Assembly (NCBI GenBank): GCA_019750095.1 | Contig: JAIEOW010000112.1 | Span: 1 to 64,000, forward strand | Direction of reading: 5' to 3' | Source: Phycisphaerales bacterium | GTDB lineage: Bacteria; Planctomycetota; Phycisphaerae; Phycisphaerales; UBA1924 | Length of the DNA stretch: 64,000 bases | Shown here: positions 33,444 through 47,570 of the stretch, one piece after another | Layout of the letters: each line of letters begins with the position of its first letter | Numbering within the stretch: the first letter of the stretch is position 1 | The notes under the pieces: generated by a model | Told to the model about the DNA's origin: nothing | Databases searched by the model: none | The model's input: only the letters and a program-made list of their open reading frames with translations | Made by a program: the position numbers and the translations under genes

Positions 33444-34775
33444 ATGCGCACCATTGCCACCGCCACACTCACCGTTGGGAGCGTGTTTGCCCATGACCTT
33501 GTCGATCCACGGAACGAGAATGGTGTGATCGCGCGGGTGGTGCTGCGGGCGGGGGAACCGGTGGGGGCCGAGCTGATCGCTGAACTCGCCGCCTCTGGGG
33601 TGACCACGCTGGGGTTGAACCGGCCTGACACGAGCGGGGGCGAAAGTGGTACATCCTCGGAAGAACGCGCGACGGATCGTCGCATGCGGGAGCTGGATCG
33701 CGATCGGTCGCGGGCTCGGGCGGTGTTGCGATCGGCGGCCGACGGTGTCATCGCCCATCGAACCAAGCGTTGGCGCATGCTGTCGCGTCGAGTGAAGATC
33801 GAGCAGCATGAAGGCGATCTGAGCGTGATGCCTGCGCCCATCGCCGAGCTCGATGCCTCGGCGATGGCGATCGAGCGTCGCGATCGGGTATCGCTGGTGC
33901 GTCGGTTGCTGCTGCGACTGGGCGACGGGCTGGCCGTGGGCTCGGGCGCGCCGATCGCGCTGGTGGAAGAACTGACCCACGACGCGATCGCGCGGCCGGA
34001 TCAGGTGGCGAGTGCGGCGCTCGGGACTCATGCATCTGAAGATGGCGACGAACCGGCGCTTGGGGCATTGGCGGATCAGGCGTATTCCGCGGCCGCTCTC
34101 TGTGTTCTCAGTGCCTCGCGCATGGGCTGGAGCTCGCTGGACGTGCGCTCGGCGGGGCTCACGGGTTTGCTTGCGGATGTGGGGATGATGCTCCTGCCGC
34201 ACGACGTTCGGCATGCGACGCGCGAGCTGACGGATGTGGAAGTGAACACGCTGCATCGGCACCCTGCATATTCGGCCGCGCTCCTGGAGTTGATCAAGGC
34301 GAGCCGGGCCGAGGATGCACTGCCCGAGTGCGTGCAGCTTGCGGTGTTCCAGCATCACGAGCGAGCCGACGGCAGCGGATATCCGCATCGGGAGCGTGGC
34401 GCAGGGATTCATGATCTCGCGCTCCTTGCAGGCGTGGTGGACACGTTTCTGGCGCTTGCTTCGCCGCGGGCGCATCGGCCCGCGCTCTCGACGCATGCCG
34501 CGCTGCGTGAGATTGCGCGGCTGGCCTCGGCCGGCGTGCTGAGCGCGGATCACGCCCGAGGACTGGTGCGTGCGGTGGGTGTGTATCCGCCGGGAACGCG
34601 CGTGCGACTGACGACCGGGCACGTTGCCGAGGTGGTCGGGCTCGCGCCCGCGAGCGCGCCGGATCGGCCCGTGGTGCGCGTGGTGGCGGGTCGCGGGGAA
34701 CGGGAGCCGGGTGAGCCGATCAATCTGAGCTGGTGGAGCAAGCGTGAGATCGCGGTGGATGCGGTCGCGGCGTAG
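33444..34775 (+). CDS. HD-GYP-type protein with degenerate active site
   Basis: 443 aa. The N-terminal ~140 residues resemble the DUF3391-like lead domain of HD-GYP proteins ('VFAHDLVDPRNENGVIARVVLRAGEPV'). The HD-GYP half keeps 'FQHHERADGSGYPHR' (304-316; His304, His305, GYP 312-314) and 'HRHPAYSAALL' (271-281). The HD dyad itself, normally 'HD.GK', reads 'ADVGM' at 244-248, so the metal-binding His and the Lys are lost. HD-GYP enzymes hydrolyse cyclic-di-GMP; this one may only bind it. C-terminal ~100 residues are beta-rich. Confidence 0.85.
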   Translation: MRTIATATLTVGSVFAHDLVDPRNENGVIARVVLRAGEPVGAELIAELAASGVTTLGLNRPDTSGGESGTSSEERATDRRMRELDRDRSRARAVLRSAADGVIAHRTKRWRMLSRRVKIEQHEGDLSVMPAPIAELDASAMAIERRDRVSLVRRLLLRLGDGLAVGSGAPIALVEELTHDAIARPDQVASAALGTHASEDGDEPALGALADQAYSAAALCVLSASRMGWSSLDVRSAGLTGLLADVGMMLLPHDVRHATRELTDVEVNTLHRHPAYSAALLELIKASRAEDALPECVQLAVFQHHERADGSGYPHRERGAGIHDLALLAGVVDTFLALASPRAHRPALSTHAALREIARLASAGVLSADHARGLVRAVGVYPPGTRVRLTTGHVAEVVGLAPASAPDRPVVRVVAGRGEREPGEPINLSWWSKREIAVDAVAA

Positions 34776-36444: not shown

Positions 36445-36517
36445 GAGGCCTGGGCGCAAGCCCTGGCACCTTGGACGTGCCGACGCCAGAGGTGCCAGGG
36501 CTTGCGCCGCTGGCCTC
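36445..36517. repeat. dispersed hairpin element, copy B
   Basis: GGTGCCAGGGCTTGCGCC (36491-36508) is exactly complementary to the inner part of the arm at 36453-36470; the outer GAGGCC/GGCCTC also pair. The left arm (36445-36469) is identical over 25 nt to the arm at 47464-47488. It starts 8 nt after the mutase stop and could act as a terminator. Confidence 0.8.
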
Positions 36518-36604
36518 GGATTGAGTGCCTTGGATTGAGGCCCACGTCAGGTCTTCGTACGGCCTATCCTTCGCTCTTATCGACTTTTCATGGAGTTTGA
36601 ACGC

Positions 36605-37537
36605 ATGACCAGCGCTCTGGACATGGTGATCGGAGCTGGGGAAGCCCAGCGGAACGCCAAGCTTGCCAACGAACACGCCAAGAAGGGCGAGGAACTGTTC
36701 GCCATCGGGAACAAGGAAGGCGCTATCGCCGAGCTGCGCAAGGCGGCGGCGGCGGACCCGACCAACTCGCACGTCTTCTTCCGGCTCGGGTACCTCCTGG
36801 ACCTGGTCGGCGAAGAGGACGAGGCGATCTCGATGTACGAGCGGTCGTGCGAGAATCCGCCCGCGCCGATCAACGCGCTGATCAATCTCTCGATCCTGCT
36901 CGAGGATCGCGGCGACTTTGTCCGTGCCGAGCGGGCACTGAAGCAGATCCTCGAGACCAACCCGAACCACCCACGCGCGATCCTCTACATGAAGGACGTG
37001 GCGGCATCCAAGAGCATGGTCATCGACGACGACGGCGACAAGGACCGCCTCAAGCGCAACGCGCTGCTCGATGTGCCCGTCACCGACTTTGAGCTTTCGG
37101 TGCGTGCCCGCACGTGCCTGAAGAAGATGAACATCCGCACGCTGGGCGATCTGCTTCGCACGACCGAGGCCGAGCTGATGGCGTACAAGAACTTCGGCGA
37201 GAGCTCGCTCGTCGAGATCAAGCAGATGCTCGCGGGCAAGGGCCTGCGGCTTGGTCAGGGCGTCGAGGACGCGCACCGTGCGGCACGCCGCAAGCTGCTG
37301 GACCAGCTCAAGGGCTCGGGCAACGAGCAGATGCTGGCCAAGCCGGTGAGCGACCTGAACCTGAGCGTGCGAGCCCGCAAGGCGCTGCAGCTTCTGAATA
37401 TTCAGTCGCTGGGAGATTTGGTGGCGCACACCGAGGCCGAGCTGATGGGTGTGAAGAACTTCGGCGCGACTTCGCTGAGCGAGGTGAAGGCGAAGCTGGT
37501 GGAGTATGGGCTGGCGCTGCGTGAGTTGGACAAGTAG
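36605..37537 (+). CDS. TPR protein with two RNA-polymerase alpha C-terminal domains
   Basis: 310 aa from ATG 36605, which has GGAG 9 nt upstream; ATG 36590 would add five residues. N-terminal TPR-like helices (about 28-130: 'AKKGEELFAIGNKEGAIAELRKAAAADPTN', 'ALKQILETNPNHPRAILY'). Then two copies of the RNAP alpha-CTD fold: first at about 156-215 ('FELSVRARTCLKKMNIRTL', 'YKNFGESSLVEIK'), second at about 246-305 ('LNLSVRARKALQLLNIQSL', 'VKNFGATSLSEVK'). Compared with E. coli alpha, Arg265 is retained in both copies but Asn268 and Lys298 are not. It may bind DNA, RNA polymerase or a regulator; function is not established. A strong terminator follows. Confidence 0.9.
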   Translation: MTSALDMVIGAGEAQRNAKLANEHAKKGEELFAIGNKEGAIAELRKAAAADPTNSHVFFRLGYLLDLVGEEDEAISMYERSCENPPAPINALINLSILLEDRGDFVRAERALKQILETNPNHPRAILYMKDVAASKSMVIDDDGDKDRLKRNALLDVPVTDFELSVRARTCLKKMNIRTLGDLLRTTEAELMAYKNFGESSLVEIKQMLAGKGLRLGQGVEDAHRAARRKLLDQLKGSGNEQMLAKPVSDLNLSVRARKALQLLNIQSLGDLVAHTEAELMGVKNFGATSLSEVKAKLVEYGLALRELDK

Positions 37538-37564: not shown

Positions 37565-37599
37565 CAACGGCGTGCCAAGGCACGCCGTTGTTCGTTTTT
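37565..37599 (+). terminator. intrinsic terminator of the TPR/alpha-CTD gene
   Basis: CAACGGCGTGCC (37565-37576) and GGCACGCCGTTG (37579-37590) form a perfect 12-bp stem, followed by TTCGTTTTT. Confidence 0.9.
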
Positions 37600-37675
37600 C
37601 TGCCGGTTTCATGCTGATTCCAAGTGCAATCCGGACACTCCGACGATCCGCGGCACACAGAACGCGATCCGTGTT

Positions 37676-47463: not shown

Positions 47464-47570
47464 GAGGCCTGGGCGCAAGCCCTGGCACGCGCGATGTGGG
47501 ACGCAATTCAAGTTCGGCACGTCAAGGGTTCATGCGGTGCAGAGGGTGCATGGGCTTGCGCCCACGCCTC
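47464..47570. repeat. dispersed hairpin element, copy C
   Basis: Left arm 47464-47488 is identical over 25 nt to the left arm of copy B (36445-36469). The right arm 47546-47570 is complementary to it at 22 of 25 positions. It lies 12 nt after the purB stop codon and may act as its terminator. Confidence 0.75.

Follow-up and report, generated by a model that had tools for sequence, protein, structure and literature searches.

The window analysed here, a 64,000-nucleotide stretch of planctomycete DNA, contains a gene whose product seems to combine TPR repeats with two RNA polymerase α-CTD domains. This raises the question of whether these are true α-CTDs on a protein separate from RpoA and, if so, what such a protein could do in the cell.

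A TPR protein with two α-CTD domains, separate from RpoA

An earlier note on this DNA had described an open reading frame at 36590-37537, coding for a TPR-like N-terminus and two α-CTDs, and had called for a Pfam domain search and a phylogeny against RpoA. The ORF was found on the forward strand at these coordinates (315 aa, the longest frame for the TPR-αCTD-αCTD protein), though the true start is probably the ATG at 36605 (M6; 310 aa), because a GGAG lies 9 nt upstream and the N-termini of homologues align at residues 6-10. The open frame around the ORF spans just 332 codons, and the short N-terminus of the protein is therefore real. The features of the gene and its flanks are as follows.

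36453-36508, no strand: REP-like inverted repeat (arms of 19 bp) in the interval that separates the TPR-αCTD-αCTD gene from the phosphoglucomutase gene
36605-37537, forward: probable coding region of the TPR-αCTD-αCTD protein (GGAG, homologue N-termini, ORF, dN/dS)
36665-36988, forward: three TPR repeats, aa ~26-133 (Pfam TPR_14/TPR_2/TPR_8, AlphaFold helices, VIA-align)
36989-37063, forward: TPR-D1 connector with a conserved LKD...S..M..DE motif, aa ~134-158 (phylum alignment; locally low pLDDT at aa 141-150)
37052-37234, forward: α-CTD domain D1, aa 155-215 (PF03118, 73.6 bits; fold match to α-CTD-DNA structures)
37235-37321, forward: D1-D2 linker, aa ~216-244, weakly conserved, with a predicted helix at 225-241 (AlphaFold, alignment)
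37322-37501, forward: α-CTD domain D2, aa ~245-304 (PF03118, 67.8 bits)
37565-37600, forward: intrinsic-terminator-like hairpin, an 11 bp stem then TTCGTTTTTC, directly 3' of the gene

The Pfam search bore out the domain reading. PF03118 (RNA_pol_A_CTD) matched two stretches of the protein (E = 1.2e-39, 134.3 bits), each domain scoring above the cut-off of 23.8 bits, and TPR_14, TPR_2, TPR_19 and TPR_8 were all above their cut-offs in the N-terminal part. The earlier note had named generic helix-hairpin-helix domains as the result that would speak against it; this identity was rejected, since HHH_5 reached 17.9 bits against a cut-off of 27 while PF03118 was far above its own. D1 and D2 are true RNA polymerase α-CTD domains.

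Structure prediction agreed with the profiles. The full-length AlphaFold2 model (pLDDT 92, pTM 0.49) has well-folded domains whose mutual placement is uncertain, and the helices at aa 42-144 of the TPR part have a pLDDT of ~95 or more over most of that stretch. Since TPR matches dominated the full-length structure search, a separate model and search were made for the C-terminal half; the D1-D2 fragment alone gave a pLDDT of 84.7. Modelled D1 and the Caulobacter α-CTD in complex with AT-rich DNA (9zum) share 52% identity and superimpose to within 0.7 Å over 65-66 columns; for E. coli RpoA the fit was 0.8 Å over 67 residues (Z 13.7), and RpoA CTD chains in general matched at Z 13.1-13.7. This list of fold matches covers D1, and the fold of D2 rests on its sequence profile and AlphaFold2 confidence. 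The TPR part matched peptide-binding TPR domains at Z 16-18 in VIA-align, and residues E105 and D106 of TPR3 are each 96% conserved among 101 proteins; these would be TPR positions 12-13, which usually face the groove.

The genome contains three PF03118 domains, two in the TPR protein and one in RpoA. The latter is a 340-aa protein with its own CTD, encoded on contig C198 beside secY in the ribosomal-protein region (L082:6363-7385), so the two proteins are distinct, as had been proposed. Unlike true rpoA, the window gene lies outside such a region. Furthermore, the best-scoring NCBIfam RpoA model, at 140 bits, fell short of its cut-off of 302, the RpoA models matching mainly the C-terminal part, and the α-NTD, which dimerises and holds β/β', is absent, the N-terminus being occupied by TPR. 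A duplicate or pseudogene of RpoA was rejected in view of the missing α-NTD, a dN/dS of 0.064 and conservation across the phylum. NCBIfam has no dedicated family for the TPR-αCTD-αCTD protein; only RpoA models match it, below cut-off, and its homologues risk being mislabelled as RpoA.

In the window, the gene adjoins that for phosphoglucomutase, directly upstream of which an HD_5 (HD-GYP type) domain protein is encoded at 33444-34775. The REP-like palindrome at 36453-36508 (AGGTGCCAGGGCTTGCGCC arms) has a second copy at 47472-47562, and genome-wide we counted 105 such half-sites at ≤2 mismatches versus 2 for the reversed control. Across the phylum, the gene neighbourhood showed no phylum-wide partner and none tied to transcription. 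Conserved neighbours were restricted to lineages (PdxA, a MATE transporter, phosphoglucomutase, SpoIID-like, Tgt/YajC/SecD; beyond the Pfam-scanned genes, these names are our own reading of the sequences), and we therefore rejected any function or operon inferred from them.

Distribution and constraint across Planctomycetota

A full-length ortholog was found in 40 of the 41 genomes of the window's order, the sole exception being G003. At a threshold of E ≤ 1e-15, not reached by RpoA matches in the order-level search, 279 of 294 phylum genomes had a match, normally in single copy, a few of these matches being fragments at contig edges. Good assemblies had it in 153 of 155 cases, and of the two that seem to lack it, G181 has domains cut by a contig end. 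What the earlier note offered as a possibility, that such proteins may exist in other planctomycetes, thus holds for practically the whole phylum. Named carriers include Rhodopirellula baltica, Lacipirellula limnantheis, Neorhodopirellula pilleata and Roseiconus nitratireducens, and in a contig scan every named carrier among the matches listed (at least 80 loci) was a planctomycete. In plasmid and phage collections, none of the matches spanned 80% of the query, and those with an annotation were RpoA. A literature search found no paper on the TPR-αCTD-αCTD protein. Two unannotated 'Bacteriophage sp.' records (MT836419.1:6006-6263 and MT839982.1:452-679) encode an α-CTD-like stretch, ~37% identical, and one genome has, in addition to RpoA and the TPR protein, a further α-CTD in a 155-aa open frame (G205:C1:4088706-4088888, L267).

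In other orders of the phylum the protein mostly reaches ~430-490 aa and has a longer TPR array, compared with which the set in the window's lineage is reduced to three repeats. In two genomes of one family, which we take to be perhaps Brocadiales, TPR and D1 are present and D2 is undetectable (G127, C1:1874111-1874725, L125; G308, C3:212908-213438, L127). D1 is therefore the constant part, and D2 is dispensable in some lineages.

This constancy is also seen in sequence conservation. Among the 29 genomes with all three domains, mean pairwise identity was 0.681 for D1, 0.551 for RpoA-CTD and 0.525 for D2, and 25 columns of D1 were conserved at 95% or more versus 10 of RpoA-CTD. D1 is also closer to the E. 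coli α-CTD than the planctomycete RpoA-CTD is (identity 0.507 vs 0.456). Relative to the nearest sister genome, dN/dS was 0.064 for the whole gene, 0.029 for D1 and 0.014 for D2; purifying selection on the window gene is strong. In the maximum-likelihood tree against RpoA, D1, D2 and RpoA-CTD formed three distinct clades (support 100, 99 and 48), in an alignment of 62 residues that resolves these groups and not the deeper branching order. The three separate clades place the duplication before the radiation of the phylum, and judged from their sequences D1, D2 and the RpoA CTD are all ancient paralogues.

Contact residues and the predicted role

We then compared the key residues (E. coli numbering) across the phylum. 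The retention of Arg265 reported in the earlier note was confirmed: R265 is kept in 98% of D1, 100% of D2 and 100% of RpoA, and likewise G296 (100%, 94%, 100%), E302 (98%, 100%, 100%) and the S299 equivalent. The same note had taken loss of Asn268 and Lys298 as a sign of altered DNA contacts. Asn268 is indeed replaced by Thr in the window's lineage, but across the phylum N is retained in 72% of D1 and Thr occurs in 24%; in D2 the position is K/R in ~89%, and in RpoA N in 96%. The argument from Lys298 fell, since Thr occupies this position not only in 64% of D1 and 90% of D2 but also in 96% of phylum RpoA CTDs, and we rejected it as a special feature of the protein. Thr298 in 96% of the sampled RpoA CTDs (L132-L161) suggests altered UP-element reading phylum-wide.

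One explanation is that the protein acts as a decoy, an α-CTD mimic that sequesters activators or σ region 4 and thereby reduces transcription that depends on the RpoA-CTD, the TPR domain receiving the regulatory signal. D1 does retain the α1 helix and the 261-type surface (D259 91%, E261 86%), which in E. coli forms the contact with σ, and two domains per chain would give avidity. However, R265, G296 and E302 vary hardly more than in RpoA, and a pure protein decoy would need none of them; their retention favours DNA binding over an inert decoy. Near-universality also fits a core role better than a modulatory one, and we consider a decoy unlikely. R265 and G296 align with R261 and G292 of the B. 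subtilis α-CTD, where replacement by Ala was impossible (PMC4495994).

DNA binding could also serve a scaffold without RNAP contact, the α-CTDs reading A/T-rich DNA and tethering a TPR-bound partner to the nucleoid. The retained DNA-face residues of both domains would fit, as would a basic residue at position 267 (Arg/Lys in 100% of D1, 92% of D2 and 3% of RpoA) and the charge of D2, which is more basic than RpoA-CTD: the net charge from DNA-face basic residues was +1.5 for D1, +2.5 for D2, +5 for E. coli and +0.8 for phylum RpoA. On the contrary, D1 preserves its non-DNA surfaces better than RpoA-CTD does, as the 25 versus 10 conserved columns indicate, and such a scaffold seems to us quite improbable. 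Position 267 aligns with Y263 of the B. subtilis α-CTD, a contact of Spx (PMC2801614).

A post-initiation factor, in which the α-CTDs serve as protein-protein modules, like α-CTD with NusA, and link a TPR client to elongation or translation, is the least credible of these explanations. Foldseek matches include NusA/NusG-containing complexes, yet the matched chains were only RpoA; nothing specific favours this explanation, and it leaves the conservation of the DNA face unexplained.

We therefore favour, with a probability of about 0.6, a stand-alone protein that is associated with transcription, belongs to the core set of Planctomycetota, makes α-CTD contacts in trans and docks a partner through its TPR domain. 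The two α-CTDs sit as beads on linkers behind the TPR domain. In this model, D1, with D2 as a helper, would bind A/T-rich DNA upstream of promoters and/or contact σ region 4 and RNAP in α-CTD fashion, while the TPR groove would bind a conserved partner, which the protein would recruit to promoters or RNAP as it supplies α-CTD contacts in trans. DNA binding, σ/RNAP contact and partner docking are what we infer; the architecture, the folds, the distribution, the distinctness from RpoA and the retained contact residues are what the analysis showed. Support for the predicted role in trans comes from the two PF03118 domains, the D1 fold, the kept R265/G296/E302 together with D259 and E261 of D1, the failure of Ala replacement at the B. 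subtilis equivalents of R265 and G296, the high conservation of D1 and its closeness to the E. coli domain, the near-universal orthologs, the three clades and the conserved E105/D106; it is weakened by fewer basic DNA-face residues than in E. coli (though the phylum's RpoA has a lower net charge still), by the lack of a transcription-linked neighbourhood and by the D1-only lineages. A bolder version, which we put forward tentatively and think less probable, is that this second α-CTD pair in trans is a phylum-defining, possibly essential RNAP-associated factor, its D1 constrained beyond the RpoA CTD and its TPR domain bringing a planctomycete-specific partner to promoters.

Overall, a DNA- and σ-contacting module duplicated outside RNAP and present nearly phylum-wide suggests a level of transcription control that has gone unrecognised, and a transcription factor common to all of Planctomycetota, a phylum known for its unusual cell biology, may have been overlooked. 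Planctopirus limnophila is genetically tractable and offers direct targets.

Comparison with known systems

The α-CTDs of RpoA from E. coli, B. subtilis and Caulobacter have the same fold and belong to the same HMM family, PF03118. The window-type protein shares with them the equivalents of R265, N268 (in D1), G296, S299 and E302, and the identity between D1 and the domain from E. coli is ~51%. It differs in having two copies per chain, with TPR replacing the α-NTD, and in Thr298 (also in the phylum's RpoA), Arg/Lys267 and K/R268 of D2. With the RpoA of Planctomycetota it has a homologous CTD and Thr298 in common; the RpoA gene, in contrast, lies in the ribosomal-protein/secY region, and the RpoA CTD forms its own clade and is less conserved than D1. 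The small α-CTD protein NF005841/PRK07758 likewise represents an α-CTD outside RpoA, but that family is ~95 aa long with one domain and without TPR, and the window protein scored 39.8 against its equivalog cut-off of 115. Finally, Spx and ComA-type partners of firmicutes act through the α1 helix of the α-CTD, and the Y263 contact of Spx in B. subtilis is the position of the family-specific Arg267; those partners, however, bind an α-CTD, whereas the window protein contains it.
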